Shown here one piece after another: positions 6,573 to 62,089 of a DNA stretch of 64,000 nt. This stretch comes from Pseudoflavonifractor sp. 524-17 (GTDB taxonomy: Bacteria; Bacillota; Clostridia; Oscillospirales; Oscillospiraceae): assembly GCF_009935845.1 (NCBI RefSeq), contig NZ_QWEK01000017.1:1-64000 (forward strand), given 5' to 3'. Position numbers and translations under genes: made by a program. Positions within the stretch are counted from its first letter, which is position 1, and the number at the start of each line of letters is the position of its first letter. Under the pieces are notes generated by a model. That model made no database searches and was not told where the DNA came from. It saw only the letters and a list, made by a program, of their open reading frames with translations.

Positions 6573-7058
6573 ATGATGGAGATTTACACAGTGAGCTTTT
6601 TCGGACATAGGCAGCTTGACGATTTTATGGAGGCCGAGTGCCGGCTGGAAAAGCTGATCCGAGAGCTGCTTTCCGAAAGAGAATATGTAGAATTTCTTGT
6701 TGGGCGAAACGGCGACTTCGATCAGCTTGCGGCATCCACCGTCCTGCGCCTGAAACGGACGGTACGGGATGATAACAGCTCCCTTGTTCTTGTCCTCCCA
6801 TATCTGACGGCGGAGTATGCCAACAATCACGATTCTTTTGAGGGCTACTATGACGAGATCGAAGTATGCCAAGCCGCCGCAGGCGGACATTTCAAGTCGG
6901 CCATCCAGACAAGGAACCGCGAAATGGTAGACCATTCCGATTTGGTAATCTGCTGCATTGAACGAAATAAGGGCGGGGCCTATCAAACGATGCAGTATGC
7001 ACAGAAACAGGGAAAGGAAATCATCAACATAGCTGGGATACTCAATGAAATTATTTGA
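6573..7058 (+). CDS. SLOG-family (YspA / DUF1273-like) protein
   Basis: A 161-residue protein. I chose the start at ATG 6,573, which has GGAGAG eight bases before it; the longer open frame upstream covers the hairpin leader and does not look coding. It begins with a Rossmann-like strand and SFFGHRQL, has FLVGRNGDFDQLA in the middle and VICCIERNKGGAYQTM near the end, the pattern of SLOG proteins thought to bind nucleotides or nucleotide-like ligands. Homologues are frequent next to Clostridia relaxases. Its ligand and role in transfer are unknown. It ends directly before the relaxase gene. Confidence 0.8.
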   Translation: MMEIYTVSFFGHRQLDDFMEAECRLEKLIRELLSEREYVEFLVGRNGDFDQLAASTVLRLKRTVRDDNSSLVLVLPYLTAEYANNHDSFEGYYDEIEVCQAAAGGHFKSAIQTRNREMVDHSDLVICCIERNKGGAYQTMQYAQKQGKEIINIAGILNEII

Positions 7059-7066
7059 AAGGGGGT

Positions 7067-8467
7067 ATGCCTCTGGCGACAACGCGCATTATTCCCATGC
7101 ACATCAACAAGGGAAAGACGCTGGCACAGTGTTTGTCTGACCGAATGGGTTACGGGGAAAATCCCGAAAAGACAAACAGCGGAGAGTACATTTCCTCCTA
7201 TGAGTGCGACCCTCAAACAGCCGACTCAGAGTTTCTGCTTTCTAAAAAACAGTATCTGACGCTCACAGGCCGGACACAGGACAATGATGTGATCGCCTAT
7301 CAGATACGGCAATCCTTTAAGCCGGGAGAGATCACGCCGGAGGAAGCCAACCGCATCGGCTATGAGTTTGCCATGCGCTTTACCAAGGGCGAACACGCCT
7401 TTATCATCTGCACCCATGTAGATAAAAAGCACATCCATAATCATGTGTACTGGAACTCGACTAAACTATCTTGTATGGGAAAATTCAGAAACTTTTGGGG
7501 CAGTACAAAAGCCGTCCGTGAACTGAGCGACCTCATCTGCATGGAGCATCGGTTGTCTGTGATTAGTAATCCGAAGCGCCAAGGCAAGAGCTATAACAAG
7601 TGGCTGGGCAGTCAGGCCAAGCTCTCCCATTGGGAGGAAGTGCGTATCCTTATAGACGAGGCGCTTGCCAAAAAGCCGCACAGCATGGACGCCCTGCTGG
7701 AGCTGCTGTCCGCCTCCGGCTATGAAATCAGGCGCGGGAAAAATATTACTTTGATGAAAGCGGGCCAGAAGAATATCCGTCTGAACTCGTTGGGCGAGGG
7801 CTACACTGAGAAAGAGCTTTTCGCGGTGATCTCCGGCGCAAAGGTACACACGCCCAGGAAAAACCGTCGGCTGACCGCTCCGAAAAAAGCAAAACTGATT
7901 AAAGAGATTGAGGACAAGCTGAACGGGCGGCACTCACAATGGGATTCTGTCCGTATCCTGAAACAGATGGCGCGGTCTGTCCTCTATGTCCAGCAGCACG
8001 ATTTTGACACCTTTGACGAGCTGGCGAAAAAGTCTGCGGCGGCATCAGCGCGGGTGGGCGAATTAGGTGCGACCATAAAATCTGCCGAAAAGCGCATGGC
8101 GGAGATCGCTGCGCTGCGGACGCACATCATAGGCTACGCCAAGACTCGCGAGGTGTATGCCGGCTATCGGAAAGTAGGCTATTCCAAAAAATATCTGGCC
8201 GCGCATGAGGACGATATTATCGTCCACAAGGCAGCAAAAAGGGCCTTTGACGAGGCGGGCCTCAAAAAGCTGCCTACGGTCAAACGGCTGAACGCCGAGT
8301 ACGCTGAACTTCTGGCACAGAAAAAAGCGGCCTATGCCGAGTACGCCGAGGCAAAAAAAGAAATGCGGGAGCTGCTTGTCCACAAGGCCAACGTCGAGTA
8401 TATCCTGGGCTTGGAGGAACAGGAGAAAACGAGGATCAGAGAGGCCGAGCGCGAGAGCGCGAGGTAA
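7067..8467 (+). CDS. Relaxase (MobA/VirD2-type mobilization nuclease)
   Basis: A 466-residue relaxase that would nick oriT and lead the strand in transfer. The start at ATG 7,067 follows GAAAGGGGG; an in-frame TTG at 7,055 is less likely. Near the N-terminus is the metal-binding histidine motif HVDKKHIHNHVYWNS (three-His signature), preceded by HAFIICTHV. A candidate catalytic tyrosine is in the first third (YGENPEKT or YISSYEC). The C-terminal third is coiled-coil-like (many Lys/Glu/Ala, EYAELLAQKKAAYAEYAEAK). The oriT-like region begins 47 bases after the stop. It is intact and may also serve element A, which has an oriT but no relaxase. Confidence 0.9.
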   Translation: MPLATTRIIPMHINKGKTLAQCLSDRMGYGENPEKTNSGEYISSYECDPQTADSEFLLSKKQYLTLTGRTQDNDVIAYQIRQSFKPGEITPEEANRIGYEFAMRFTKGEHAFIICTHVDKKHIHNHVYWNSTKLSCMGKFRNFWGSTKAVRELSDLICMEHRLSVISNPKRQGKSYNKWLGSQAKLSHWEEVRILIDEALAKKPHSMDALLELLSASGYEIRRGKNITLMKAGQKNIRLNSLGEGYTEKELFAVISGAKVHTPRKNRRLTAPKKAKLIKEIEDKLNGRHSQWDSVRILKQMARSVLYVQQHDFDTFDELAKKSAAASARVGELGATIKSAEKRMAEIAALRTHIIGYAKTREVYAGYRKVGYSKKYLAAHEDDIIVHKAAKRAFDEAGLKKLPTVKRLNAEYAELLAQKKAAYAEYAEAKKEMRELLVHKANVEYILGLEEQEKTRIREAERESAR

Positions 8468-8893: not shown

Positions 8894-9442
8894 ATGTTGA
8901 TATATTTGCAAATGCTCGATACGCCAGAGGAAAGGGCAAAATTTGAAACTCTATATTATGCTTACCGGCGAACCATGCTGCATATTGCCATGCAGATTTT
9001 GAAGGATCACCAACTGGCCGAGGACGCGGTGCAGGAGGCTTTTCTGCGGCTGGTGAAAAATTTTTCAAAAGTCGGACAGATAAATTGTCCCCGAACACGA
9101 ATGTTTACGGTTATTATAGTTAGAAACATCTCGCTTACTATGCTTGCGAAACGAGAGGAAGAAAATATTCTTGAGAGTCCAGAGGCCATGATTCCGATAG
9201 AGTACGATCTGGAGGAAGATGTGCTGGATCGGATTGCTTATGAGGAGGTGTTGAGTGCCATCCAAAAGTTGCCGGTTATTTATAGGGACATTCTGTATCT
9301 CCAATGCGTGGAGGAATACAAGCTGACGGAAATTTCCAAGTTACTGGGCATTGAAGCAGAGACAGTAAAAAAACGCGCCCAGCGAGGGAGAAAAAAGCTG
9401 TTGGATCAACTGACAAAGGAGCATGAAGATGAAAACGCTTAA
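8894..9442 (+). CDS. ECF RNA polymerase sigma factor
   Basis: A 182-residue sigma-70 family factor with only regions 2 and 4. Region 2 (FETLYYAYRRTMLHIAMQI, then DHQLAEDAVQEAFLRLVKNF) binds core polymerase and the -10 element. Region 4 (LPVIYRDILYLQCVEEYKL, then ISKLLGIEAETVKKRAQRGR) is the -35 reader. It overlaps the start of the next gene, whose product has a membrane segment and looks like its anti-sigma partner. It probably directs transcription of the gene array that follows; this is inferred from position. The ribosome-binding site is weak (GAGGT), and a second in-frame ATG lies six codons in. Confidence 0.92.
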   Translation: MLIYLQMLDTPEERAKFETLYYAYRRTMLHIAMQILKDHQLAEDAVQEAFLRLVKNFSKVGQINCPRTRMFTVIIVRNISLTMLAKREEENILESPEAMIPIEYDLEEDVLDRIAYEEVLSAIQKLPVIYRDILYLQCVEEYKLTEISKLLGIEAETVKKRAQRGRKKLLDQLTKEHEDENA

Positions 9443-11030
9443 AGCGGCTTTGCAAGAGGCGTATTTCATGGAGTTGGAGGAAATACCTTCCGATGAAATA
9501 TTGAGCGAAGATGATACTCTGACTTTTTCATCAGCTTTTGAACGCAAAATGAAAAAGCTAATTCGCAGGGCCGATCACCCTGTCCGGCATCGAATTGCCC
9601 AAGCTGCGGCTTGTCTCCTGCTGTTGGCGCTGTTGAGCGGCTGCACCGTATTGGCAGTCAGCCCGGAGGCAAGGGCGGCGTTCGTGGGCTGGATACGAGA
9701 AACGTATGAATCGTGGTTCGTTTACCGCTATTCCGGCGAGGAGCAGCCTCCCTCGGAGGATAAAGTATACGCTCCCACATGGGTTCCAGAGGGGTATGAG
9801 GAAATCGTTGCACCGCAAGTTGGAACCTATATCCGCTCGCAATATGAAAATAACGAAAATGAATTGTTGACTGTCTCATATTTGAAAGGCACAGAAAAAT
9901 CATCGCTGAATGTGGAATGGGAGGGCGCAATCGTTCAAGAATCTTCTGTAGGGAATTTGCCTGCGGATTTATACCTGAATCCGAACGATGGTCCCAGCAT
10001 TTTGGTGTGGACGGATTATGAACGTGATGCTGTTTTTTGGATTACCGCCCCATTGTCGGGGGGCGAATTAGTAAAAGTTGCCGAGAGCATCCAGCAATCG
10101 GAGTCCATGCCCAGGCGGTACAGGGTGACCTGGCTGCCCTTGGAGTATGGCGGGTATTATTTGGAGTCGGAGAACGAGGAGGCAGGAAGCGGCGAGATTG
10201 TGTACGGCAACGATCAGGGCTTCTCCATCACATTCGGGTATTCCAATGACGATGCCCAGGCGCCCAGGCCCAGGACAAACGGCGTCAAGGCTGTCTCTGT
10301 GGACGGTAGGGCCGCGGAGCTGTACCCAAGCGGCACCAAGGGCGGGGACAGTGTTTTGGTGTGGCCCGCCGCCGAGGGCAGAAGCACCCTATGGGTGTGC
10401 GCACCGTTGCCGGAAGAGGAACTGATCCAGATTGCGGAAAACGTGATCGTACAGCTCAACAGATTCACAGACCTGATTGATATCCAGACTGCCAACGAAG
10501 GAGAAACTCCGCTGCTGGAGGCAGTGGAACAGGCGTTGACGGAAACCTATGTGGCCCAGGTGGAGGACTGCGCCAAACGGGCCGCAAAAACCGGCAATTA
10601 TGCGTCGGAGGAGTATGACCGGTTACAGAATGACCAGATGGCCCGGTATATCTCCCCGGAACGGGAGGAAGCGCTGGCCCGTGTCTCCGCCCTAACCGAT
10701 GCGCTCCGGAAGGAGGGGCGGTCTGGCGAGACCATTGTGAGCCTGTTCGGCCCGTTCTACGCAGCCACCATCTGGGTGAGCGACGATGTTGATTACGCGC
10801 TGCTTGCCGAATACGGTATGTTGGATACGTTGGAATACTATTTCGATACCACTGCCAATATCGTGGACGAGCGGGGCGTATTGATTGCCACCTACCAAAT
10901 TCACTATCTCAGTGGCCGTGGAGAAACCATCACGGTGCCCACCGCCGAGGAAATGCAGTTTATGTATGAGAGCAATCAAATTTATCTAAAGGCATATCGT
11001 GCGGCACAGGCGGAAACAACCCAGGAATGA
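9429..11030 (+). CDS. Membrane anti-sigma-like protein: two DUF4367-type repeats plus an array-type domain
   Basis: A 533-residue protein overlapping the sigma gene. ATG 9,429 is seven bases from AAGGAG and preferred to ATG 9,423. A cytoplasmic N-terminus of about 54 residues is followed by one membrane segment (about 55-77), then an outside part. Two repeats of DUF4367 type follow (about 112-228 starting TWVPEGYEEI, and 230-350 starting VTWLPLEYGGYY). From about 360 comes a third domain with MARYISPEREEAL and MYESNQIYLKAYRAAQAE. This domain matches the proteins encoded at 11,047, 11,779, 17,729 and 18,406 at both motifs. The natural reading is an anti-sigma factor whose sensor carries a copy of the fold of the proteins its sigma factor controls. 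Confidence 0.85.
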   Translation: MKTLKAALQEAYFMELEEIPSDEILSEDDTLTFSSAFERKMKKLIRRADHPVRHRIAQAAACLLLLALLSGCTVLAVSPEARAAFVGWIRETYESWFVYRYSGEEQPPSEDKVYAPTWVPEGYEEIVAPQVGTYIRSQYENNENELLTVSYLKGTEKSSLNVEWEGAIVQESSVGNLPADLYLNPNDGPSILVWTDYERDAVFWITAPLSGGELVKVAESIQQSESMPRRYRVTWLPLEYGGYYLESENEEAGSGEIVYGNDQGFSITFGYSNDDAQAPRPRTNGVKAVSVDGRAAELYPSGTKGGDSVLVWPAAEGRSTLWVCAPLPEEELIQIAENVIVQLNRFTDLIDIQTANEGETPLLEAVEQALTETYVAQVEDCAKRAAKTGNYASEEYDRLQNDQMARYISPEREEALARVSALTDALRKEGRSGETIVSLFGPFYAATIWVSDDVDYALLAEYGMLDTLEYYFDTTANIVDERGVLIATYQIHYLSGRGETITVPTAEEMQFMYESNQIYLKAYRAAQAETTQE

Positions 11031-11046
11031 AATGGAGGAACAAAAT

Positions 11047-11763
11047 ATGCGTTTTAGCGGTATTCCAAGGAGTTACCGTACCAGCATGAGGCGAACATCG
11101 GGGATGTTGTCTATGCGGAGCAGGACAACTTCATCGCTTTTTAGTTCGTTGAAAAGTGGGGGACGGTTCAAGCTCAAATCCGGCAGTTTGCTTAACAATT
11201 CATCCATCAGCCGTAAGTCTAATAAAACTTCTCTCTCCAAAATTATTCGCTCGGATATCGTGAATGTCAGCGCTGTCAGCAGCAAGGTTAGCAGCGGTCT
11301 GACCAAGGAATATGTGAGTGCGCTTGAAACCCAGGCCAAGAAGGATGCCCAAGCCGGGGCCTATGGCAAGGATGGCAAAATGTCAGAGCTTCGAGCTGAA
11401 CAGATGAAGAAATATATCTCCCCAGATCGGGATTCAGCTATTTCCCAGGTGTCAAAGCTCCTATCGGCCGGTTCGTTTCAAAAGGCAGGGGCAAACAGAG
11501 CGAAATTATCTGGCCTGCCCTATACAGCCACCGTAACAAAAGGACGGAATGGGACGACAGCAGAAATTTTCGACGAGTATGGAGAGAAGTTTGCCAGCTA
11601 TGACGGTAAAACTGGTGAATGGAAAAAGATAGCTACCAAGGCTGAAGCACAGTTCCAGACAGCATCGAGTTCAATCTTCGGTGAAGCCTATCGCGCGGCC
11701 CAATCTGGGCTGCGTAGCAGTAGTGGAAACAGAACACAGTCCAGTTTAGACTTTCGTGCATAA
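11047..11763 (+). CDS. Array family P, member 1 (unknown function)
   Basis: A 238-residue protein with GGAGGA before ATG 11,047. The first 65 residues are rich in Ser, Arg, Lys and Thr and look unstructured; there is no signal peptide or membrane segment. The family domain follows: LTKEYVSALETQAKKDA, then MKKYISPDRDSAISQV, then TTAEIFDEYGEKFASY, and a closing ATKAEAQFQ...EAYRAAQSG. It ends SSLDFRA, the tail shared across the array. The same motifs occur in the anti-sigma protein just upstream. I do not recognise a function; the lack of a Sec signal leaves open an intracellular role or export by another route. Confidence 0.75.
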   Translation: MRFSGIPRSYRTSMRRTSGMLSMRSRTTSSLFSSLKSGGRFKLKSGSLLNNSSISRKSNKTSLSKIIRSDIVNVSAVSSKVSSGLTKEYVSALETQAKKDAQAGAYGKDGKMSELRAEQMKKYISPDRDSAISQVSKLLSAGSFQKAGANRAKLSGLPYTATVTKGRNGTTAEIFDEYGEKFASYDGKTGEWKKIATKAEAQFQTASSSIFGEAYRAAQSGLRSSSGNRTQSSLDFRA

Positions 11764-11778
11764 CAAGGAGGCAGCACT

Positions 11779-12429
11779 ATGGCAATCAACGGTGTTCTCG
11801 GTGCTTACAATTCTTATGGCTCTTATAGAGCCACCAGCAGACCCACCAACCGTTCAGCGTCCAAAATATCAGTCAGCGAGGACGGCTTATATGAGCCGAT
11901 CAGCAAGAAAGTCAGTGGAGCTTTATCTGACGAGTATGTTGAGCAAATCAAAGCCCAAGCCCGCGCTGATGCTGCAAAAGGCCGCTACATGGACGGGTAC
12001 GATAGCAAGCAGCGTACCGGCTTTACAGCCATGATGAATACGCAAATGAAACAGTATGTTTCCCCGGATCGGGCAAACCCCACTTCCCAAGTGTCCGCCG
12101 CAATCAACGATCCTAAACGTGTCTGGCATACTGGGGCAAATCTCTTGGATTTGTTAGACGGCCTCTGTACTGCCAAAGTATTCCACGGGCCTATGTTTGG
12201 AACTACGGCGGAGATTTATGACGGGAATGGCGAAATGATTGCGGGCTATCGTGACTCTTGTGGTTGGTTCGATGTTCCCACGAAAGACGAAACACGGTTC
12301 CAGTATGAATCTGCTCAGATTTACTGTGAGGCATACAGAGCGACCGAGGCAGAGATAGCCGCCGCCAAGCAGACGGCGGCTCCGGCGGTGAGCGGGGATG
12401 CACCCGCAAGTTTTGATATAAAGGTCTGA
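11779..12429 (+). CDS. Array family P, member 2 (unknown function)
   Basis: A 216-residue protein 15 bases after member 1, with GGAGG before ATG 11,779. It begins MAINGVLGAYNSYGSY and has a Ser/Thr-rich stretch, then LSDEYVEQIKAQARADA, MKQYVSPDRANPTSQV, TTAEIYDGNGEMIAGY and PTKDETRFQYESAQIYCEAY. The last segment is nearly the same as PTAEEMQFMYESNQIYLKAY of the anti-sigma protein, which makes this its closest relative in the array. It ends SFDIKV. Function unknown; no signal peptide. Confidence 0.75.
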   Translation: MAINGVLGAYNSYGSYRATSRPTNRSASKISVSEDGLYEPISKKVSGALSDEYVEQIKAQARADAAKGRYMDGYDSKQRTGFTAMMNTQMKQYVSPDRANPTSQVSAAINDPKRVWHTGANLLDLLDGLCTAKVFHGPMFGTTAEIYDGNGEMIAGYRDSCGWFDVPTKDETRFQYESAQIYCEAYRATEAEIAAAKQTAAPAVSGDAPASFDIKV

Positions 12430-12938
12430 TAGCCTTAATGAAATATGTGCTTTTCCCGATAAAGGTGTTGCTCCTGCCGAATATCCCAGCGCCATCATTG
12501 TTCCCAGCGTCGATCTGGATGAACCCATCGACCCCAACGTTTTGTAGATGAGCATAGACTCACCTATCCCCGCAATCTTAATTTAATGTTAGAAATAGTT
12601 TTCCTCCAATCCAAAACGCCTCTAAAACCGTAATTGCTTTCCCCGCAGGACTTAATTTTTCCGAGCACAAGCCGATATAAAAATTAAGGATGTTTTCCGT
12701 AGAAATGTGGGAAAAGAGGTTGACAAACGCTATGATTTGTGCTACCGTCAAGCAAGCGTAGCTATGACTATATAGCTTCGCAGCCTTTTTGCGCGGTTAC
12801 GGTAGATACGTTTTTATAGTAAAAGGCGTTTTTTGCCGCATGGTTATCCATGTGGCAAAAAGCGCTTTTTTCGATTTTACAGCGGATCATTGGACAAATC
12901 GAAAAGAAATCCAAAATCAGAAATGAGGAGGCAATCCC
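12430..12938 (+). other. Gene-free stretch with hairpins and a possible ECF promoter
   Basis: No convincing gene in 509 bases. In 12,438-12,547 one frame reads FPDKGVAPAEYPSAI...PSVDLDEPIDPNVL before TAG, which looks like the end of a lost gene. At 12,720 is TTGACAAACGC followed 17 bases after AAC by CGTC, similar in form to ECF promoters (AAC near -35, CGTC near -10). Between 12,742 and 12,813 CTACCGT...ACGGTAG encloses a second stem (GCGTAGCTAT/ATAGCTTCGC). The terminator-like hairpin at 12,821-12,871 follows. Confidence 0.5.
12821..12871 (+). terminator. Long terminator-like hairpin between array genes
   Basis: A roughly 23-bp stem with G-U pairs, AAAAGGCG...GCCGCATGG with TCCATGTGGC...GCGCTTTTTT, loop TTA, ending in a run of T. 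It would end the sigma/anti-sigma/P1/P2 operon, or act as an attenuator before the gene at 12,939, and could work on both strands. Confidence 0.75.
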
Positions 12939-13376
12939 ATGACAATCACGCAGATGGTACAGAGCCAACAGCGGCAGCGCATCGGTGAGTTGGTCCAGAA
13001 GCAGCAAGATAAGCCTCATATCAATCCCTACGGTACTCCCGGCATGAGTCTAAACGATGCCGGCGACTATCGGAAGATGGTCCCCGTAGACAAGAGTGTG
13101 GTGCAGCAGGTCAAGCAGATCGCTTTCAACCATATGAAGAACAGCTATGGCGTGAGCGATGGCGAGGACATCAGCAAGGTCATTCGGGACTATACCATGT
13201 CCTTGGCTCCAGAAAAACGACTCAGTGCATCATGGACGCTGAATGAGATTTTTCAAAGCGAGGCCACTCGGCTGGGAGAGTTTGTCCATCAGCAAGACCC
13301 GAATTGGAATTGGGGAAAGCCCTTTGACATCAGCATCTTGGACGACTACCGGCAAGGTGTGGATATGCAGGTATAA
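12939..13376 (+). CDS. Array protein Q (unknown function, 145 aa)
   Basis: A 145-residue protein with GAGGAGG before ATG 12,939. It starts MTITQMVQSQQRQRIGELVQ, is rich in Gln and mostly helical, and has no signal peptide or membrane segment. A central part reads DKSVVQQVKQIAFNHMKN and the second half has a short conserved-looking WNWGKPFDISILDDY. The end is GVDMQV, matching the array tail seen in family P and in the 16,166 product although the bodies are not alike. I recognise no domain. It starts a second group of array genes after a strong hairpin. Confidence 0.65.
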   Translation: MTITQMVQSQQRQRIGELVQKQQDKPHINPYGTPGMSLNDAGDYRKMVPVDKSVVQQVKQIAFNHMKNSYGVSDGEDISKVIRDYTMSLAPEKRLSASWTLNEIFQSEATRLGEFVHQQDPNWNWGKPFDISILDDYRQGVDMQV

Positions 13377-13426: not shown

Positions 13427-14503
13427 ATGTCTTTGATCGTATCACAGACGCCAGTGAACCGGCTCCCCGCCAAACTGGTAAATAACGCTGCTTTTGTCAA
13501 ACAGATTGGCTTTGACCCCGTACATCAGAGCACCGAAAGCAATCAGCCTGCGGAAAAAATTCATGGCGGTGAGCATTCGCACTTTGATTCCGTTTCCATC
13601 AGTGATAGTGCAACGATGCACATATACAGCGACCCCACTATGTCTATTGAGGCCGGGCCGGATGCGCCTGCTTACGACCCCGATGCAAAAATACGAGTCT
13701 ATTTCAATGCTCTCTCTGGCAGGGACTATTATCTCACTCAGGAGCGAGCGCAGAATGGTGCGGTGGCGGATTACTTTTTTGAACTGCGTCCCGATGATAT
13801 TGAGCAGCAGGCCAAGGCCATTGTCAGCGGTGAAGGATATGATCCCTATCATCCGGCTACAGAGTTTTTTGTCAAGGGCCTATGCCAGTGGTTTTCGGAG
13901 GAGGATACAAAATCTGTTGCTGAAACCTTCGAGGCGGTGTGCCGCGAATATGCGGGGATACTGGAAACAGGGCGTACCCCTGCCCTGTCGGAATTGAAAA
14001 CCACTTTTTCCTTCTGCGGTGAGGAAGTCAGCGTTTCCAAACTGTTCAATATGGTAGAGGCTGGGAAGAAGATCTCACAGCAGTCCAGTCGGTACGGTTG
14101 CATTGGAACCAGTATGTATATCGGCCTCGCTGCTGAAGGGATGTTGAAGTCAGCAGCCTTGAATTATGCAAATACATTGTCCTCCGGTGTCGGTAAGGCA
14201 TTTGCGGACAATTTTGAGAAACTTTTTGATAACAGCGCAAAGTGTAGTGTCCAAAAGTGGAATGAGTGGAGCAAAACGGACGCAAGCAGCACCTTGCCAA
14301 AAGACTATCGTGACTATATCGCAGATCAAGCGTCCTACGCCTATCAGTTGTTCTCCCAGTCCAATCTGACCAGCGGGGATGTATCCGCTAAAATCAATCA
14401 GTTTTGTATCAGGAACCAGTACACTTACGGAGGCATGGCGACAACTGATTTCCGCAATATTATGAGTGGGTACTATCAGGAGATCGTAAAGCTGCTTGCA
14501 TGA
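13427..14503 (+). CDS. Array family B, member 1 (unknown function)
   Basis: A 358-residue protein with GGGGAGG before ATG 13,427. The N-terminal 70 residues are polar and contain DSVSISDSA, similar to the short motif before the folded part of FlgM-like and related proteins. The C-terminal half has LSELKTTFSFCGEEVSVSKL, matching LSKVKTTLTVGGGEVSISQL and LSKVKTTLTIGGSDVTISKL of the proteins at 20,656 and 21,803, so the three form a family. This member is the most divergent. No signal peptide, membrane segment or known enzyme motif is visible. It does not carry the array tail (it ends VKLLA). Confidence 0.7.
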   Translation: MSLIVSQTPVNRLPAKLVNNAAFVKQIGFDPVHQSTESNQPAEKIHGGEHSHFDSVSISDSATMHIYSDPTMSIEAGPDAPAYDPDAKIRVYFNALSGRDYYLTQERAQNGAVADYFFELRPDDIEQQAKAIVSGEGYDPYHPATEFFVKGLCQWFSEEDTKSVAETFEAVCREYAGILETGRTPALSELKTTFSFCGEEVSVSKLFNMVEAGKKISQQSSRYGCIGTSMYIGLAAEGMLKSAALNYANTLSSGVGKAFADNFEKLFDNSAKCSVQKWNEWSKTDASSTLPKDYRDYIADQASYAYQLFSQSNLTSGDVSAKINQFCIRNQYTYGGMATTDFRNIMSGYYQEIVKLLA

Positions 14504-14543
14504 CAAGAAAGGAAGTAAGCCGCACAAATTAGGAGGCATTGAT

Positions 14544-15250
14544 GTGAAAAAAATCTCTGTTCTTTTACTTGTCCTATCTCTGGCATTGAGCCTCTGTGCG
14601 TGTTCCAAAGCAAGCCAGATTCCATCTCTCGAAGAAATTGTAGAAATGGGACGGAATGGGGCAATGAGCAGCTACAGCGGTCACAGGGATGGACATTGGC
14701 AGACCTTGAAAAAGTATGGGGGAAAGCCGATGGCGGACTGTCTGGAATGTATGGCTGCTTCTGGAAAGTAAATGATAACGCATCGGTCACTGTGCGATAT
14801 TATGATGCGGAGATTGATAATATCAGATATATTGCCGTTACTGAAGCGGAAGATAAGGAAACAGCTTCGCTCACAACTGAAACGACAGCTTTGGATGATA
14901 TTACGCAAACGTCGATTATTGAATCGGATAAAGACGCATTAGACATTGTGAACATTATTGATAGAACAAAAACAGAAGGACTTCCCTATGATATGGCAGA
15001 AGAAAAGTTTTTTGAAGATGGTGACAATGAATACTATTTTAGTGGGATTTATAGCCATTATGTTATCGTTCACTATGGAGACGGGAGCCAAGAAGATATA
15101 GTAACTGCTTTGAACACCGGAAAGGCAATCATTTCTGATTTGGACAAATTTGGGGTAAGTTATACTGTTAAGCCCTCTGGGATGAGAAGTGCTGAACTAC
15201 CCAATAATCCCATCAGTCAAACCGGGACCGAAGAAGCAGAAATGAGGTAG
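14544..15250 (+). pseudogene. Lipoprotein of unknown function, frameshifted
   Basis: A GTG start at 14,544 follows AGGAGG and opens a lipoprotein signal (KKISVLLLVLSLALSLCAC; lipobox LSLC). After EEIVEMGRNGAMSSYSG the frame continues wrongly and stops at 14,771, while another frame takes up from about 14,690 with WTLADLEKVWGKADGGLSG and WKVNDNASVTVRYY, followed by a Thr/Asp/Glu-rich region to TAG at 15,250. The join GW.L.DLEKVWG.ADG...GCFW suits small Clostridia lipoproteins with a beta-rich domain. A one-base change near 14,690 broke the gene, unless it is a sequencing error or a programmed shift, for which I see no slippery heptamer with a strong structure. Confidence 0.7.
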
Positions 15251-15256
15251 ATAAAA

Positions 15257-16111
15257 GTGAATGTAACAAACTTTGCAAATCTTTTTCACCAAAACAGTAT
15301 CTTCCAGCAGAATAAACCGCTGGGGCAAAAACTTGTTCAGCCGCCGATCAATGACACACTGCACCGGCTATCCGAAAATCTGCTGAACGCGAAAAATCAG
15401 GCAAAGGATATGAAAACCCGGTTTGATACGTTGGAGCTGTCGGCGGAGGCCACGGAGGGCAAGAAAAATTCCGCGCTGGAGGAAATGCCGGAGGGCCTGC
15501 TACACTTCTACTTAAACCAGTGTAAAGTTGGCGCGCATTTGAGCCAGCAGCACGAAGCGTCTTTGATGGAATACCGGGATCAGCTCTCCGCCTTTGACCA
15601 AACCATTCAAGAATATCAGGATATGCTGGACGGCAACAAGGCTTTGCCGGAGCAGATGAAGCTGGAGCACATCTCCAAGCTGCTGGACGCTACCAGGGCA
15701 GCGCGTGAACAGTTTATGCAGCAGGGCGCGGCGGAGCTGAACCGGGTATCGGATAACAACCCCACCCAAGAAGGCTATATGGGAAAGGCTTACAGCAAGG
15801 CCGCAGAGTGGGCAGGGAACGGCTCTAATGATACCCACTGGCAAATCGACACCTCCTCAGACGATATTTACGGTGAAATTGACCGCGCTCTTTCCTCCGC
15901 GCATAGCATAACATCCACGTTCCAAAAAGGGGCCTCCAACATCCTGGCCGAGTTGAAGCGGCGGGACTGTGTCGAGGAGGGGGAAGAAATTCATTTTGAA
16001 GATCAGGAGACAGCGACCAGCGGCGCCGTTCAGCGAGAATCGCTGTTTCAGTCCATTTATAACGGGATATGGAACACGTTCAAACAGAGCGTTGACAACG
16101 GTGCAGAGTAA
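15257..16111 (+). CDS. Array protein (284 aa, helical, unknown function)
   Basis: A 284-residue protein with a GTG start at 15,257, six bases after the lipoprotein stop. The N-terminus (NVTNFANLFHQNSIFQQN) is polar and Asn/Gln-rich, followed by long helices with coiled-coil character; DTLELSAEA near residue 57 resembles DSVSISDSA (13,427) and DEIVISPEA (19,045). The C-terminal FQSIYNGIWNTFKQSVDN is worth noting because degraded copies of the DNA coding for it occur at 17,643-17,710 and 18,997-19,030. No signal peptide and no known domain. Its place in the array suggests a shared route with the P and B proteins. Confidence 0.7.
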   Translation: MNVTNFANLFHQNSIFQQNKPLGQKLVQPPINDTLHRLSENLLNAKNQAKDMKTRFDTLELSAEATEGKKNSALEEMPEGLLHFYLNQCKVGAHLSQQHEASLMEYRDQLSAFDQTIQEYQDMLDGNKALPEQMKLEHISKLLDATRAAREQFMQQGAAELNRVSDNNPTQEGYMGKAYSKAAEWAGNGSNDTHWQIDTSSDDIYGEIDRALSSAHSITSTFQKGASNILAELKRRDCVEEGEEIHFEDQETATSGAVQRESLFQSIYNGIWNTFKQSVDNGAE

Positions 16112-16165: not shown

Positions 16166-17629
16166 ATGAATATCATGAACTGGGGAAACATCCCCAACAT
16201 TACCAACCAGATCACCACCGGCGCACCCCAAGCGGGCCTCCGTTGCGACCCCAGTGCTGCGGTATGCTCCACCGGCAAGAGCGTGGCCCCCGGCACGGAC
16301 ATCAGCGGCCTTGGAACGCTGAAAAATATTGATGAAGCCGCCCGGCAGGGTTACCGGGAGGACTTCTCCATTCGGGATGCGGCGGAGGGCCTGTGGCGGA
16401 AGGAGAATTTTAACTTCAACATCTTTGACCCTGCCAGCATCCAGCGGATGCAGGATCGTGTGCGGCAGGGCACCTATACCATGACGCCTACCGATGCGGA
16501 ACTGTCTTCTTACATAGATACCCTGCGGCAGAACGGTCTGGACGGTGCTGTGGACTGGAACGGCCTGAGCCATGAGATGAAGTCGTTCCAGGCCACCTCT
16601 GCGGAGGAGCTGGAGGATGGGCTGAACTACATGGCCTCCCGCTATGTGGCGGCGCTGGATAAACTGGAGCGCAACTATACCGGCGACGAACTGACCACCC
16701 AGCTTGCCAAGCTGGAGGAAATCTATCAGGCCGGAAAAGCTGGTATGATTGATGGCTACACCCAGCTTTTGCAGGACAATCTGGGTATCTCCGACAGTGA
16801 CGCCCAGGCAGTCCGGGACAGTTTCTCCTCCATCCTTGCGGAGAAAGAGGAGGCTTACCGGGGCGCGTTAAAGCAGGTCCATGAGGCCGTGGCGCAGACT
16901 GGTACGGACAGCGTGTGGCTGAAGAACCACGATGCCTATATCGCCTCCCAGCTCCGGGCGGCGGCAGGCGCATCAGGGCAGAGTGGGGCCCGATACTCGG
17001 TGCAGGACCTGACCGCCGCCGGCCAGATTGCCCAGAACTACCGGACGGAGATTGACGGCGCATCCTCCTGCGGGCGGAACGAAGCGACGTTGGCGCTGGG
17101 TCTGTCCATGGCGGACATGAAGGCGGAGGCCATGATCTCCAAGGGGCTGGTAAGCGGCAGCATGGCGGACCTGCTCCGAAGCAGCCGCACCCAGGGGCAC
17201 CAGAACGCCCTCGCCGCTCTGGACCGAGCCCTGGCGAACCGGGAGAGCCACCGGGCCACCGGCGAGCCCAAGGGAACCTACGCCCCGGTAGACAGTGCGG
17301 TGTTTCGGGGAATCTACGATGCTGTCTTGGACGCCTATCGTCAGAACGGCGGCGATGCCGCCAAGGCAATCCAAGCTGGTGCCTCCGCCGGGGAGAAGCT
17401 GACCGCTCAGGCTACCGCCAGGGCTCCCAAGGCCGCGCGCTGGGGCGCGAGCATGAGGAGTTATTGGCAGGAGTTTTACAAGGTCCCGGAGGAGCAGGCC
17501 ACGGTCTTGGGCTTGCAGATCAAGTATCTGACGAACCAAAAGTCCAGGAGCTCTGCCTACCAGAAGTACGTTACCGGCTGGCAGGACTTCCTTGCCTCTA
17601 TTGGCGGCGGAGTGGATATGCGGGCGTAA
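16166..17629 (+). CDS. Large helical array protein (487 aa, unknown function)
   Basis: A 487-residue protein with AGGGAGGA before ATG 16,166. It begins MNIMNWGNIPNITNQITTG, with a Gly/Ala/Thr-rich polar start, then is almost wholly helical (for example ELTTQLAKLEEIYQAGKAGM and VRDSFSSILAEKEEAYRGAL). There is no signal peptide or membrane segment. It ends GGGVDMRA, the array tail. Base composition is richer in G+C than its neighbours at 13-15 kb and 18-23 kb, so its origin may differ. Overall it recalls helical secreted proteins lacking Sec signals, but I recognise no family. Confidence 0.7.
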   Translation: MNIMNWGNIPNITNQITTGAPQAGLRCDPSAAVCSTGKSVAPGTDISGLGTLKNIDEAARQGYREDFSIRDAAEGLWRKENFNFNIFDPASIQRMQDRVRQGTYTMTPTDAELSSYIDTLRQNGLDGAVDWNGLSHEMKSFQATSAEELEDGLNYMASRYVAALDKLERNYTGDELTTQLAKLEEIYQAGKAGMIDGYTQLLQDNLGISDSDAQAVRDSFSSILAEKEEAYRGALKQVHEAVAQTGTDSVWLKNHDAYIASQLRAAAGASGQSGARYSVQDLTAAGQIAQNYRTEIDGASSCGRNEATLALGLSMADMKAEAMISKGLVSGSMADLLRSSRTQGHQNALAALDRALANRESHRATGEPKGTYAPVDSAVFRGIYDAVLDAYRQNGGDAAKAIQAGASAGEKLTAQATARAPKAARWGASMRSYWQEFYKVPEEQATVLGLQIKYLTNQKSRSSAYQKYVTGWQDFLASIGGGVDMRA

Positions 17630-17728: not shown

Positions 17729-18376
17729 ATGCAAATTAACGGAGTAAATAGTCTTCGGGAGGCCGCCAGATGGGGGAATACGCCTATCATCCAGAAAAAA
17801 GCGGTTGAAGCGTCTAAAAATGCAATGACAGACGATTTTGTTGAGAAACTCCAAGAGTTAGCGCGGAGAGATGCTCAAAAGGGTGTTGGTATGAGCCAAG
17901 AGGCGATTAACCTCTGTCATGCACAGATGAACAAGTATGTTTCTCCTGACCGTTCAGCTCCGATTGCACAGATGACGCAGGAACTGCAAAAGGCGGAGAA
18001 GGCGCATAAAGGAGAAGACCCCACTTTGGAATTTCTCGACAGGATGTTAGCATAGCTCAAAGGTAAAGGGAGACCGGAGCGTATTGTGAAATCCTTCAGC
18101 GGGCTGGCTGGCGGCTGTTCCGGCGATCTTCATAGTACCCCCGAAAACCAGGTTGCTACGGTATATTCGCCCGATGGGGAAGAAATCGCGCAATATAATA
18201 CCAGCGGCGGTGGTTGGATGAATTTAACTACCAAGGCGGAAAATCAGTTTCTTGGGGATTCCAGTGCTGTTTATAAGCAAGCTTGGGATGCTACGCGTGC
18301 GGAGATTAAGAATGCAGCGCAGAAACAACCAGTGGCTTGCAAAGGGGAAACTGCGACTTTCGATGTTCGAGCCTGA
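17729..18376 (+). pseudogene. Array family P, member 3, split by an amber codon
   Basis: ATG 17,729 follows AAAGGAG and gives MQINGVNSLREAARWG. The family domain is complete over two parts in one frame: MTDDFVEKLQELARRDA and MNKYVSPDRSAPIAQM before TAG at 18,053-18,055, then FSGLAGGCSGDLH, VATVYSPDGEEIAQY, GGGWMNLTTKAENQF and QAWDATRAEIKNA, ending TATFDVRA with TGA. The frame does not change at the TAG, so this is a nonsense change, not an indel. Member 4 runs through the same region without a stop. The second half begins again with an internal GTG/ATG but has no clear ribosome-binding site. Confidence 0.8.
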
Positions 18377-18405: not shown

Positions 18406-18978
18406 ATGATTGATTCTTTGTTAAACAGAACTGGAACACCAGTCAACTGGGGGAAAAGTTCCAAGGCTCAAGGCACCGAAAAAACCGCAAAAAGCGCAAT
18501 GACCGATGGCTTTATTGAGCGGATCAAGGCATACGCGAAGGAAGATGCCAAGCGGGGCGAATATATGTCAGCAGGATTTACCCAAATGCGGCTTGCACAT
18601 ATGAAGCAATATGTTTCCCCTGACCGCTCCGGGCCGAAAAGCCAGGTAATGTCTGCTATCCAGGCAGCATTGAAAGAACCGCATCCGATGTTGCAGGCAT
18701 TGGAAAAGACGCTGGAAAAACTGTCGGGAGGCTGTTCCGCGAATCTTAAAATCAGCTCCGTCCAGCAGGCTGCGGAGATATATGCTCCTAACGGGGAGAA
18801 TATCGCAAGCTACAACAGCCTTGGCGGAGGCTGGACGGATATACAGACGAAGGAAGAACATAAATACTTTAACGAAACTGCTTCTATTTACTTACAGGCA
18901 TTTCGGGAGGCCCGCGCAGAAATGAAATCTTCTCAACCCGCCCCGTCTGTTGAAACATCGGTAAACATTCGAGCTTAA
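18406..18978 (+). CDS. Array family P, member 4 (unknown function)
   Basis: A 190-residue protein at ATG 18,406, 29 bases after member 3. It reads MIDSLLNRTGTPVNWGKSS, then MTDGFIERIKAYAKEDA, MKQYVSPDRSGPKSQV, KLSGGCSANLK, AAEIYAPNGENIASY, GGGWTDIQTKEEHKYF and LQAFREARAEM, ending ETSVNIRA. It is the closest relative of member 3 and shows what that gene encoded before its amber codon. No signal peptide; function unknown. Confidence 0.75.
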   Translation: MIDSLLNRTGTPVNWGKSSKAQGTEKTAKSAMTDGFIERIKAYAKEDAKRGEYMSAGFTQMRLAHMKQYVSPDRSGPKSQVMSAIQAALKEPHPMLQALEKTLEKLSGGCSANLKISSVQQAAEIYAPNGENIASYNSLGGGWTDIQTKEEHKYFNETASIYLQAFREARAEMKSSQPAPSVETSVNIRA

Positions 18979-19044: not shown

Positions 19045-20514
19045 ATGGACATTAGTGTAACCGCCAATCCAAGCAGACAAGCGGCTTATATCAATACGCA
19101 AACTAACGCGGCGCAGAGGGCGAAAAAAGCAGGTATGTCTGCACCTGCTCAAGCCCAGGACGAAATAGTAATCTCTCCAGAGGCTAAGACTACTATGGAG
19201 CAGACGGCTCAGGTAGGTACTACGGCTCCAACTGCTGCGGACGCCGAAAAGCAGACAAGCAATACTATCACTTTTGCCTCGTTTGCAGAGGAGTTCAGTA
19301 AGATCACTCAGGGCTATGGTGATAATATCCGCAAATACTATGCCGAAGCGCACGATGATAATTTGACTTATGATGATCCTGCTGCCCATATCTGGGACAA
19401 ATATAAAAACCCGGATTCCCCTGATTTCCGCGCTGACTTATCAGAGGACGAACGGGCATGGGCCTATGACCAGGAATTGGATTTGTTGAGCGGGGGTAAA
19501 CACTTGCAAATGAGCAACCCCTATGCGTTCGCCTCCGCTGGAGGCCTGCCTACGCTGGCCTCCGCAGCGATACAGGCAAATCAAGCGTGCCGGGAGCAGA
19601 TCGACCAGTCTATACAAGACCTCCTTGCAGAGAATGGGATAGAGCTTCCGGCAGACGCATCTTTCCGGCTGACAGTAGACCAGGACTACACAATTCATGT
19701 AACAGGTTTGGAGGACGAGGAACAGGCTACGGCGATAGAGCAGGCATTAAATCGTGGCGACAACGGTAAAAACCTGTATAACCATCTTAAGCTGACTACT
19801 CCAAACGGTGAAAACCTGGGTGTAGATTATGCAAACGGTCATCTGGCGGCTGTCGATACACAGCAGGAATTGGATGATAGAACTCTTGATGAAGTCAAGA
19901 AACAGGCTGGGCCGATTTGGGCACGTTATTCCAGTACATACAACCCCCACCAAGAGGCCATGAACGAAAAAATTCTCAGTCTTGACCCTGATTCCCCTCT
20001 AAACACCCAGGAGAGCAAGGATCGCATGAGCGCAGCCGTTCGGGTCGGTGCGCCGGAGATAATTGCCGAGTTTCGCGCCCGGCAGCAGGATATGCGTTTG
20101 GTTATCAATCAGAATCGGGACGTTGACCCTGATGGCTCGATTGCGCTGAAAACCTATATGCGGGCTTATGCACAACCGGCGGTGAACGCCAGAAAAACGA
20201 TTGAGGGCTACTACGCCGAAGCCCATGCGGAGAACAGTTCCTATCCGTTTTTGGAGGGGCTGGAGCATATCGCGCAGAAGTATAAGCGCCCTGATTCCGG
20301 TATTTTTCGTTCAGATTTGACCGAGGCGCAACGGGACATGGCCTACCGTCAGGAGCGGGCCTTGCTGACCGGCGCTCGGCTGACCCTGTTTGACCCCTAT
20401 GCACTGGCTTCTATTGGCGGTGTGCAGACAGCCCAGACGTCCCACCAGGGGGCGATGCAGGCAGTCATCGAAAAGATGAACGAACTTAGAAATCAACTGT
20501 ACGGTATAGAATAG
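19045..20514 (+). CDS. Array protein with two related halves (DUF4885-like)
   Basis: A 489-residue protein with ACAGGAGG before ATG 19,045. The polar N-terminus has DEIVISPEA near residue 39. A unit of about 85 residues occurs twice: around residues 97-180 (RKYYAEAHDDNLTYDDP, DKYKNPDSPDFRADLSED, DQELDLLSGGK, NPYAFASAGG) and around 390-475 (EGYYAEAHAENSSYPF, QKYKRPDSGIFRSDLTEA, RQERALLTGAR, DPYALASIGG). The pattern is like proteins annotated DUF4885 in Bacilli and Clostridia, but I could not check this. There is no signal peptide. The duplicated unit is probably a binding module. The function is unknown. Confidence 0.65.
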   Translation: MDISVTANPSRQAAYINTQTNAAQRAKKAGMSAPAQAQDEIVISPEAKTTMEQTAQVGTTAPTAADAEKQTSNTITFASFAEEFSKITQGYGDNIRKYYAEAHDDNLTYDDPAAHIWDKYKNPDSPDFRADLSEDERAWAYDQELDLLSGGKHLQMSNPYAFASAGGLPTLASAAIQANQACREQIDQSIQDLLAENGIELPADASFRLTVDQDYTIHVTGLEDEEQATAIEQALNRGDNGKNLYNHLKLTTPNGENLGVDYANGHLAAVDTQQELDDRTLDEVKKQAGPIWARYSSTYNPHQEAMNEKILSLDPDSPLNTQESKDRMSAAVRVGAPEIIAEFRARQQDMRLVINQNRDVDPDGSIALKTYMRAYAQPAVNARKTIEGYYAEAHAENSSYPFLEGLEHIAQKYKRPDSGIFRSDLTEAQRDMAYRQERALLTGARLTLFDPYALASIGGVQTAQTSHQGAMQAVIEKMNELRNQLYGIE

Positions 20515-20655: not shown

Positions 20656-21783
20656 ATGTCTATGCCAACTATTTTGCCTTCGGGCCAGCTCCATCCAGAT
20701 TTGTTTAACGGTCCCTTTGTTAAGCAAGTTGACAGTAGCACGTCCATAGCCACAGGTGAACCGGGCGCTAAAGTCCACGGCAACACGACAGCAGAAAAGG
20801 GCAACAAAATCTGGCTTGAGGACCAAGACAGCGTGATTGACATCTCTGGCCGTTTCAACAGCAAGCGGGTCGATTCCTATGATGGCAAAAAGGTCGTAGA
20901 AAACAAGGGCATGGGGCTTATTATCGAAACGATACAGCCTGGTGTTTTCACTGCGGAGGATGCAAACAAGTCCGCAGCGTCTGGCGGAGCTACCCACGGT
21001 TTCTTCTACCGCAAGACAGATTTCCTGTTCAGCGCCGCTCAAGAATACACCGCCCTTGGCGAAAACGAAGTGTTCCGCCATCGCAACATCGACGATGTGA
21101 ATTTTGTTCGGGACACGCTGGACTTCTTCACTGACGGGAATTACACCCAGGCGGACGTGAACCGTATGCAGGATCAGATGACGGCGGTGGTTCGGGAACT
21201 GGCCCAGCAGATCAAGGACGGCGGATCGCCGGATTTGAGCAAGGTAAAGACCACTCTGACTGTGGGCGGCGGTGAGGTTTCGATTTCTCAGCTCCTGGAA
21301 ATGCAGAAAACAGGGCGTGAGTTGTCAGAGTCCTTTAGCGGGATGACATCCGGCTCCCTGACCGGCCATAATATTGAGGCGTTTGCAGAAATGGGAATTG
21401 CAAAATCCTTGGGTAACTACTATGGCAGCGATAAGGGAGAAATCGGCAAACTGTTTTCCTCCGCTGTTGACCGCCTGTACGAAAAAGGCATAGCTCAAGT
21501 GGAAAAGGCTGAGGCATGGGGACAGACTGTATCCTATGCCGCTAATACATCTGGAAATAAGGATGCAGTGAAAACAGAGCTGAATATCGCTGACCTGTTT
21601 TCTAAGCTGGATACCAGCAGCAAGAGCAACTTTGCGCAGAGTTTTTCGTCTGCGCTGTCTCAAGCAAGAACGCTGGTGCAGCAGTATTGCAATCAGTATA
21701 ATCTGCTGACTTCCCATGTTGGGCTGGCTGGCGCTACGGATAATATCTCAAAATTCTTCCAAGCATGGATGGATCGGAATTGA
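20656..21783 (+). CDS. Array family B, member 2 (unknown function)
   Basis: A 375-residue protein with AGGAGG before ATG 20,656. It shares with member 3 the sequence GATH(G/A)FxYxxxDFL, then NEVFRHRNIDDVNFVRDTL, LSKVKTTLTVGGGEVSISQL, RELSESF, MGIAKSLGNYY and a C-terminal HVGLAGATDNISKFFQAW. The protein is polar at both ends, helical in the middle and has no signal peptide or membrane segment. Close similarity to the next gene shows a recent tandem duplication. No known domain is recognised. Confidence 0.7.
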   Translation: MSMPTILPSGQLHPDLFNGPFVKQVDSSTSIATGEPGAKVHGNTTAEKGNKIWLEDQDSVIDISGRFNSKRVDSYDGKKVVENKGMGLIIETIQPGVFTAEDANKSAASGGATHGFFYRKTDFLFSAAQEYTALGENEVFRHRNIDDVNFVRDTLDFFTDGNYTQADVNRMQDQMTAVVRELAQQIKDGGSPDLSKVKTTLTVGGGEVSISQLLEMQKTGRELSESFSGMTSGSLTGHNIEAFAEMGIAKSLGNYYGSDKGEIGKLFSSAVDRLYEKGIAQVEKAEAWGQTVSYAANTSGNKDAVKTELNIADLFSKLDTSSKSNFAQSFSSALSQARTLVQQYCNQYNLLTSHVGLAGATDNISKFFQAWMDRN

Positions 21784-21802
21784 TAAATGGAGGGAATGCG
21801 AT

Positions 21803-22951
21803 ATGGCTATCGTTTCATTATCTGGACAATATGCTGGGCGCAACCCTGCGCTTCAGCACACCGCAGGCCAGACAGGTGAAGTGGGCCAAAAGGCGTCTTT
21901 GGACGCAGCCAAAGTACAAGCGGTTACAGATATGGTCAATCGAGATTATCATGCTGGAAAGTTTGACTTGTTTGACCCAAGCATCTGTCTCAACTATGAC
22001 AGCGCCGATGATACCGTTAGTGACTCGTCGCTGACTGGAAAAACAGTTGTTCAGAACAAACCTACAGGCTGGATCATCACTACAATCGACCCCAACATGA
22101 CCACTGCTGACGATGCGAGAAAAAGTGCAAAAGCGGGCGGCGCTACCCATGCGTTTTTATATCAGAGCTTTGACTTTCTGACGGATGCAGCAAAGGAATA
22201 CGCTACATTAGGGGACAATGAGGTGTTCCAGCATCGGAATATCAATGATTTATCCTTTGTGCGCGATACATTGAGCTTCTTTACAGGAGAGGACTACTAT
22301 AAAACTGGATACATCGACGAAACGCAAAGTGCTTTGATGGATCAAATCACAAATGTAGTCCATGAGTTATCCCAGCAGATTAAAAATGGGGAAAGCCCGG
22401 ATTTAAGTAAAGTAAAAACGACACTCACTATTGGCGGCTCAGATGTTACGATTTCCAAACTGATGGAAATGCAGCAAATAGGCCGAGAACTATCGGAGTC
22501 TTTCAAAAATGTCAGCGCAGGGTCCTTGAATGGTCAAACCACAGAGTCTTTTGCCAAAATGGGAATTGCCAAATCCCTCAGCAGCTATTATGCTGGAGAT
22601 AAGGGAGAAGTAGGTGCAATGTTCTCTACTGCTATTGACCGACTATATGAGCGGGGCATAGCACAGGTGCAGCGGGGTCAAGTGTGGTCACAGTCTGTCA
22701 TTGGTGCAGCTAACACATCCAGCAGCCAAGATGCAGTAAAAGTAGGGTTAGATATTGCTGATACATTTTCAAAGCTGGGTGGTAGCAGCAAGAGCGGCCT
22801 CTCTTATAGTTTTTCCTCTGCGCTTTCCCAAATGCGGAGCATTGTGCAGCAATACTGTAGCCAGTATAATATGCCGACTTCCCATGTTGGGTTGGCCGGA
22901 GCTACAGCGGGAATTGAAAAATTCTTTCAGGCATGGACGGAGAAACTTTAA
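21803..22951 (+). CDS. Array family B, member 3 (unknown function)
   Basis: A 382-residue protein starting at ATG 21,803 (GGAGGGAATGCGAT before it); the open frame further upstream overlaps member 2 and is not the start. Key segments are GATHAFLYQSFDFL, NEVFQHRNINDLSFVRDTL, LSKVKTTLTIGGSDVTISKL, RELSESFKNVSAGSL, MGIAKSLSSYY and HVGLAGATAGIEKFFQAW, all shared with member 2. It ends WTEKL. Family B lacks the array tail, so if the tail is a signal these proteins use another one. Confidence 0.7.
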   Translation: MAIVSLSGQYAGRNPALQHTAGQTGEVGQKASLDAAKVQAVTDMVNRDYHAGKFDLFDPSICLNYDSADDTVSDSSLTGKTVVQNKPTGWIITTIDPNMTTADDARKSAKAGGATHAFLYQSFDFLTDAAKEYATLGDNEVFQHRNINDLSFVRDTLSFFTGEDYYKTGYIDETQSALMDQITNVVHELSQQIKNGESPDLSKVKTTLTIGGSDVTISKLMEMQQIGRELSESFKNVSAGSLNGQTTESFAKMGIAKSLSSYYAGDKGEVGAMFSTAIDRLYERGIAQVQRGQVWSQSVIGAANTSSSQDAVKVGLDIADTFSKLGGSSKSGLSYSFSSALSQMRSIVQQYCSQYNMPTSHVGLAGATAGIEKFFQAWTEKL

Positions 22952-62037: not shown

Positions 62038-62089
62038 ATCGTCACCTCCCAAAAGTGTGCGGATTTCTCCGTCCTTGAGATATTATCCC

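Follow-up and report, generated by a model that had tools for sequence, protein, structure and literature searches.

A predicted outward-facing homologue of neighbouring gene products in a membrane anti-sigma-like protein of Pseudoflavonifractor sp. 524-17, and a gene array that looks flagellum-linked

Why should a membrane anti-sigma-like protein end in a domain that the genes next to it also encode as free proteins? We analyzed this question in Pseudoflavonifractor sp. 524-17, using a stretch of 64,000 nt (contig NZ_QWEK01000017.1, positions 1–64,000, forward strand), which is referred to below as the window. The locus begins with a gene for an ECF-type sigma factor (8894..9442; sigma-70 r2 and r4_2, Pfam PF04542 6e-9 and PF08281 3.3e-13), followed by a gene for a 533 aa membrane anti-sigma-like protein (9429..11030) and by an array of genes, several of which encode members of a protein family here called P; all lie on the + strand. 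The sequences MARYISPER and PTAEEMQFMYESNQIYLKAY sit in the C-terminal part of the 533 aa ORF. The original prediction had taken them as a sign that this part is homologous to four downstream P proteins, and suggested sensing by mimicry, in which the free proteins compete with the domain for a partner, or assemble with it, and so signal their own amount or export.

In single BLASTP comparisons, the C-terminal 181 aa of the anti-sigma-like protein matched member 2 of family P with an E-value of 2e-20 (31% identity over 177 columns), member 1 with 3e-17 (32% over 161 columns) and member 4 with 1e-9 (25% over 163 columns). With member 2 searched against the whole genome, the fused domain was matched as two pieces (1.2e-6, 50%, and 2.2e-4, 28%). 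The similarity is not confined to short motifs, as the alignments span 161–177 columns, and the predicted homology was borne out over the whole domain, with the same predicted order of structural elements. It holds for members 1, 2 and 4; the statement on member 3 had to be corrected, as an in-frame TAG (18053-18055) breaks the reading frame of this gene. Sequence comparison thus confirmed the fused domain (residues ~364–532, ~10518–11024 on the + strand, delimited by BLASTP, alignment, model and the tail table discussed below) as a true homologue of family P.

The anti-sigma-like protein is composed of a short N-terminal part, one transmembrane segment (residues 59–77), two DUF4367 stretches (Pfam 8.4e-25, with the best match at residues 114–221) and the C-terminal P domain; DUF4367 was the only Pfam family to exceed its cut-off in this protein. 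The transmembrane segment has a mean hydropathy of 2.48 and is flanked by net charges of +6 on the N-terminal and −2 on the C-terminal side; by the positive-inside rule, the N-terminus would be inside, and this topology places the fused P domain outside. DUF4367 follows a single transmembrane segment and the gene adjoins an ECF sigma gene, as in DUF4367 membrane anti-sigma proteins. From its architecture and its position after the sigma gene, we infer an anti-sigma role for this protein.

An AlphaFold model of member 4 (mean pLDDT 85, with low confidence at residues 1–22 and a weaker C-terminal end), which was based on an alignment of 31 P domains, contains three long helices, five strands and one long last helix. 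The model of the full anti-sigma-like protein (mean pLDDT 73) has the same element order at residues 364–532, and the fused copy of the window has an extra insert of ~20 residues between strands 2 and 3; both are models of monomers, and the alignments behind them combine free with fused sequences. The two most conserved P motifs, SPxR and TxxE, stand at helix starts, and the alignment, the model and what is known of capping boxes make them look like helix caps. No catalytic signature was seen in the alignment or model of the P domain, and family P had no Pfam match. Assignment to a solved fold was rejected because no match stood out (the best Foldseek E-value was 0.16, and the best VIA-align Z was 6.7, covering residues 75–147 only and within the stated noise); this absence itself was given no weight.

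Two free P genes directly follow the anti-sigma gene, those of member 1 (11047..11763, C-terminal pentapeptide LDFRA) and member 2 (11779..12429, FDIKV), both found by homology and a scan for this tail. A promoter-like site, TTAATTTTT...GCCGATAT, then lies upstream of the rest of the array at 12652..12678 (score 24.3 with a trained motif). It is followed by a gene for a protein with a weak, below cut-off Pfam match to DUF3879 and the tail VDMQV (12939..13376), by two genes whose products contain a FlgM-type motif found by motif scan (13427..14503, DSVSISDSA; 15257..16111, DTLELSAEA), and by a gene for a protein with the tail VDMRA (16166..17629, tail scan), homologues of which follow promoter sites of a similar kind on two further contigs of this genome. 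Next are P member 3 (17729..18376, tail FDVRA, from the ORF reading and tail scan) and free member 4 (18406..18978, tail VNIRA, from homology, model and tail scan), a gene for a DUF4885 protein with the FlgM-type motif DEIVISPEA (19045..20514, Pfam and motif scan) and two related genes with neither tail nor FlgM-type motif (20656..22951), which are counted to the array by position only; all of these are again on the + strand. A lipoprotein gene within the array (14541-15250), with a hydrophobic start ending in LCACS, occupies two reading frames and looks frameshifted. A close relative of member 3 in Flintibacter muris (locus L022, 4994-5638) is also broken by an in-frame stop. Recoding of the member 3 stop was considered and rejected: the stop of the relative is at a different place, and both were taken as decay.

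Apart from the lipoprotein gene, an N-terminal hydrophobic stretch was absent from the nine array proteins scored by hydropathy. Within the first 40 residues, peak hydropathy was 0.05 in members 1 and 2 and −0.41 in member 4; the lipoprotein at 14541 reached 2.16. By hydropathy, family P has no N-terminal signal peptide.

A contig scan for P yielded 19 loci, mostly from Oscillospiraceae-type gut bacteria, with one Enterocloster bin. The family is rare, being present in 10 of the 400 genomes of the host's own family. Fusion of P to an anti-sigma protein recurs in L023, L024, L025, L038 and L060, making six loci with the window, and in all six the fused gene adjoins free P genes; the gene order in L060 (sigma factor, anti-sigma-P, member-1-like P) is that of the window. 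Three further loci (L033, L035 and L036) have an anti-sigma protein without P domain, with P genes nonetheless downstream. In a phylogenetic tree of 31 domains, which leaves out L060, the five fused domains formed one clade (support 99/97), and the P domain was probably fused to a DUF4367 anti-sigma protein once. L038 also contains, adjoining the fused gene, a shortened P protein (10441-10863, tail LDLKV), in which the first and last helix are seemingly kept and the middle of the domain is missing, judged by eye. The genome of the window has a fifth P gene (L009, 9937-10509, tail LELRA), a solitary copy on contig C47 that adjoins a lipoate-ligase gene, with a WYL regulator close by.

By sequence, the fused domain is under purifying selection. 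Its dN/dS was 0.21–0.30 among L023-L025, 0.34 between the window and L038 and 0.31 between the window and L060, rough values for these five pairs as dS was 1.0–2.1. Among L023-L025, where this was measured, no other part of the operon had diverged as far: identity was 46–61% in the fused domain, compared with 74–89% for free P, 76–79% for the sigma factor and 66–80% for the other parts of the anti-sigma protein. Taken together, dN/dS and identities indicate a domain that is kept by selection and yet is the fastest-changing. Eleven core and helix-cap residues (A44, A48, Y53, S71, P72, R74, G130, T148, E151, Y162 and A165) are kept in 6/6 fused copies. Other positions differ from the free proteins: E124 occurs in 0/6 fused and 24/29 free copies, E131 in 1/6 and 27/29, and G108 in 0/6 and 22/29 (one of the 29 free rows, from L062, is noise caused by a wrong start). 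The loss of E124 and E131 was counted against a shared binding surface.

These data bear on the possibility that an exported P protein docks on the fused P domain itself, thereby reporting its own export and releasing the ECF sigma factor. Such self-recognition would be consistent with the common element order of free and fused domains, the gene order conserved between the window and L060, the outward orientation read from sequence, and the helix-capping and core residues retained in all six fused copies. However, the fused domain diverges fastest among L023-L025, and it carries other residues at the acidic positions that free P conserves, so we consider docking of P on its own copy somewhat unlikely. 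The proposal of sensing by mimicry is partly supported. True homology, fusion in six loci and outward topology support it, whereas the divergence, the loss of E124 and E131 and the absence of a strict tail speak against mimicry of the whole surface; direct mimicry is possible.

Free and fused copies also differ in the C-terminal pentapeptide. We defined a strict form, [FVLMIT][DEN]x[RKQ][AVI], and a loose form in which position four is unrestricted. After removal of 5 pieces without a true C-terminus from 41 distinct ORFs, 32 of the 36 free P proteins had the strict and 35 the loose tail, compared with none and one, respectively, of the six fused copies. Two array proteins outside the family (12939 and 16166), which the P models did not match at E 1e-3, are also tailed. 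No strict tail occurred among the 205 window ORFs outside the strand and span of the array.

The same tail was found on flagellar proteins. In the flgM-flgN-flgK operon of the host genome, FlgN ends in TDFRA. We examined flagellar regions, i.e., the surroundings of flhA from 23 of the FlhA-bearing genomes, and found FlgN in 11; all end in D-x-x-[AV], 7 of them in TDFRA or ADFRA. When H was accepted as well at position four, the tail was present in 7/9 proteins of the YviE-like DUF6470 and in 3/6 FliK proteins; the types seen on flagellar proteins were -TDFRA, -VDYRV and -VDVQA. E. coli K-12 FliK ends in VDIFA. A Pfam check of tailed proteins identified 2 DUF6470, 3 FliK and 4 FlgN, two of the FlgN just below cut-off, and a tenth protein was unmatched. 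As a background we used 4880 unfiltered stop-to-stop ORFs of ≥90 aa from the flagellar regions, most of which are not genes. The strict tail occurred in 26 of these, 14 of which were FlgN (5), DUF6470 (6) or FliK (3); the remainder comprised a family of the 482–483-aa type (3), a ~110-aa family ending in AY..I.NMQ[VI] (4; FliE by eye) and others (5). Earlier counts of 10/970 and 2/1137 came from an ORF filter that, wherever two frames overlapped, discarded the shorter one and thereby lost genuine genes, including the host's own FlgN; the recount was made unfiltered on stop-to-stop frames. The 482–483-aa family, named for its size where complete, was grouped by ends only (L126, 9986-11431, VDVKV; L140, 7575-9023, VNVKI; L150, 3-590, VNVKV); its L140 member had no Pfam match.

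We propose that the tail may mark clients of the flagellar type III system; this is a suggestion of the present analysis, not an accepted criterion. It was counted against flagellar clients that 3/6 FliK and 2/9 DUF6470 proteins lack the tail. In addition, FlgN is a chaperone, and the tail therefore need not be an export signal. Cytoplasmic P proteins might instead dock on the export gate through a FlgN-type tail and delay or modulate flagellar export, with the fused copy serving as a stable outer domain for an unrelated ligand. In favour of such gate binding, that chaperone ends in TDFRA or ADFRA in 7 of the 11 genomes, and the fused copies lack the tail and have lost conserved positions. On the other hand, free P genes still travel with the sigma/anti-sigma pair, and FliK, tailed in three of six cases, is a secreted protein (PMC6972891); overall, docking of P at the gate appears unlikely. 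The disordered C-terminal tail of FliK is thought to control export switching (PMC6972891), and Salmonella FlgN is described as binding a conserved hydrophobic dimple of FlhA-C (PMC7955116). P resembles FlgN, FliK and DUF6470 in its C-terminal pentapeptide and is set apart from them by the lack of a Pfam match and by the predicted order helices, sheet, helix.

FlgM, the exported anti-sigma-28 factor, couples sigma factor activity to the flagellum. We scanned for a FlgM-type motif, D.[VIL].[VILF]S..A within the first 130 residues, which occurs in 3 of the 11 array ORFs (13427, 15257 and 19045) and in none of the 205 window ORFs outside the array. Among the 4880 flagellar-region ORFs it occurs in four, all at the place of flgM and two of them confirmed by Pfam. 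The exact form was present in 4/10 FlgM proteins examined, several with starts set by rule, and the other six, including that of the host (start taken at an inner Met), do not fit. The three array proteins are FlgM-like in this motif. The anti-sigma protein of the window differs from FlgM: FlgM is small and soluble, whereas the former has 533 aa, a transmembrane segment, two DUF4367 stretches and no FlgM match.

Within the host's family, FlhA was found in 7/10 P-bearing and 80/390 other genomes (Fisher p 0.0013, uncorrected for lineage), and it was present in 14 of 18 P-bearing genomes of another set, which has members in common with the first. FlhA was not found in P-bearing G029, G065 and G449, nor in four genomes of the second set, two of which are again G065 and G449; G029 is listed as 100% complete and has P with an intact tail and no FlhA match. 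The association of FlhA with P partly follows lineage. Type VII secretion was rejected as an export route for P, since EssC (TIGR03928), which is over the curated cut-off in 30/400 family members, was found in 0/10 P-bearing genomes.

The array is surrounded by genes of relaxases (MobA/VirD2 and MobA/MobL), large serine recombinases, a reverse transcriptase with HNH and a partial T4SS coupling protein, and such mobile-element genes are located in the window at 7055-8467, 30995-32629, 38955-40979, 53663-55453, 56826-58292 and 62042-62611. These surroundings suggest that the array probably sits in integrated conjugative elements. Carriage by phages or plasmids was also considered and rejected; no relatives were found in viral contigs (pattern scan) or in plasmids (tblastn with member 4).

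To examine the control of the array, we used a promoter motif trained on the upstream regions of five sigma genes, all from other genomes. Its best site in the 64-kb window was 12652-12678 (24.3; next separate site 15.3). This is also the only 0-mismatch site of the host genome for a pattern that had been written to fit it. Two other sites of that genome, with ≤2 mismatches, lie upstream of array-gene homologues on contigs C95 and C136 (tblastn 2.8e-121, 4.6e-103 and 1.1e-75). The host flgM, whose Pfam FlgM match is just above cut-off, is preceded by a 3-mismatch site (13 sites vs 6 in the control), so the motif is common to the array and flgM. The motif score upstream of flgM was 17.3 in the host genome and 9.6, 16.6, 16.4, 20.1 and 16.9 in five lineage genomes, with a 1% level of 14.5; the 9.6 does not exceed what chance would give. 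Four genomes from further away scored 0.2–4.0. At p<0.01, the motif was present in 8 of 37 P upstream regions, two pairs of these being near copies, and 29 had no such site, some belonging to inner operon genes; the p-values come from random windows that include true sites and are therefore conservative, and the upstream region of L062 was taken from a wrong start. Three array copies of the host genome (window 12640-12945, L105 and L106) have a conserved leader of ~250 bases after the promoter site, which contains a TTGACA box and a stretch of AAGC repeats that varies between copies. On contig C95, L105 also encodes a mini-version of the DUF3879-like protein that, translated by eye, has its start and its end ...GKPFDTSILDSYQQGVDMRA only (two short tblastn pieces, 1.6e-7 and 1.9e-7).

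No promoter motif was found upstream of the sigma gene in the window itself (score 9.9, p 0.09). The array is a putative regulon of this sigma factor, and its promoter motif is shared with flgM. Of 17 flagellin genes tried, one start was not found; upstream of the remaining 16, the trained motif reached the 1% level in one case (L096, 15.2) and no sigma-28 form was found (scores 7–9 of 12). The exact sigma-28 pattern gave 1 site in the host genome vs 2 in the reversed control. It is conceivable that the flagellar link is secondary, the tail being a general C-terminal tag (e.g., a protease tag) and the motif the ECF factor's own promoter. The motif upstream of sigma genes in five loci would fit such autoregulation, and its rarity upstream of flagellin genes and the P-bearing genomes without FlhA also point this way. 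Nevertheless, the motif precedes flgM in the host and in 4/5 further lineage genomes (16.4–20.1), at least 14 of the 26 tail matches among the 4880 ORFs are FlgN, DUF6470 or FliK, and the FlgM-type motif is present in the array. A general tag combined with a secondary flagellar link is therefore quite improbable, and the motif as solely the ECF factor's own promoter was rejected because it is also upstream of flgM.

A tentative reading, which we rate best and to which we give a little less than an even chance, is that P proteins are flagellum-linked clients and that the fused tail-less copy is an outside sensor sharing a partner with them. The array would encode proteins made in the cytoplasm and tied to the flagellar export system, in which the P proteins, as late flagellar type III clients, would be produced together with flgM-class genes and then pass out of the cell. 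The fused P domain, which has no tail and forms the outer end of the DUF4367 anti-sigma protein, would reach the outside by the normal membrane route and bind there the external partner that exported P proteins bind too. The appearance of this partner, or its uptake by exported P, would cause the anti-sigma protein to release the ECF sigma factor. Such a system would resemble RsgI in sensing through a binding domain common to sensor and products, and would act downstream of flagellar gene expression. The homology, single fusion clade, purifying selection, topology, tail, motifs, promoter match and lack of N-terminal hydrophobic stretches are what sequence analysis shows; the export of P, the shared partner and the release of the ECF factor are steps that we infer.

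Known systems offer parallels to parts of this scheme. One precedent follows a logic other than mimicry: the outer modules of RsgI proteins bind carbohydrates, are related to parts of the enzymes under RsgI control, and sense the shared substrate. Anti-sigma factors that sit in the membrane and expose a sensor module, including RsgI of cellulolytic clostridia, are known for sigma-I and ECF systems, and the window protein resembles RsgI in this design (PMC6056542). Its ectodomain is homologous to products of neighbouring genes, which are putative members of its regulon. It differs in that no RsgI N-terminal domain was found (Pfam, E up to 1), in its sigma factor, which carries r2 and r4_2, and in the shared domain, which is found here on tailed proteins that have no hydrophobic stretch at the N-terminus. 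BtrA is reported to be an anti-sigma factor exported through type III secretion, and is similar in tying anti-sigma control to such secretion (PMC10732220). However, BtrA itself is secreted, whereas the anti-sigma protein of the window remains membrane-bound and it is a homologue of its domain that may be exported. Among the matches listed in a literature search, none describes the C-terminal pentapeptide or the anti-sigma/P fusion. The search found no paper mentioning DUF3879, DUF4885 or DUF6033 and none combining any two of FliK, Ala-405 and Val-401.

A more far-reaching version, which we consider rather unlikely, is that a regulon borne by a mobile element reads flagellar export from outside, exported P being perceived by an anchored tail-less copy of itself that frees the ECF sigma factor. 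The anti-sigma protein would then be an outward-facing counterpart of FlgM, and P would represent a small, so far unrecognised class of proteins that a C-terminal -DxRA tail directs to the flagellar gate.

That the array looks flagellum-linked is the new finding of this follow-up. If the reading with P proteins as flagellum-linked clients is true, motile gut commensals would use the flagellar gate to export proteins whose use is unknown, and would monitor this export with a copy of the cargo domain. A role would be proposed for a pentapeptide common to FlgN, DUF6470 and some FliK proteins, and P, the DUF3879-like protein and DUF4885, whose functions are unknown, would become candidates for flagellum-linked proteins.
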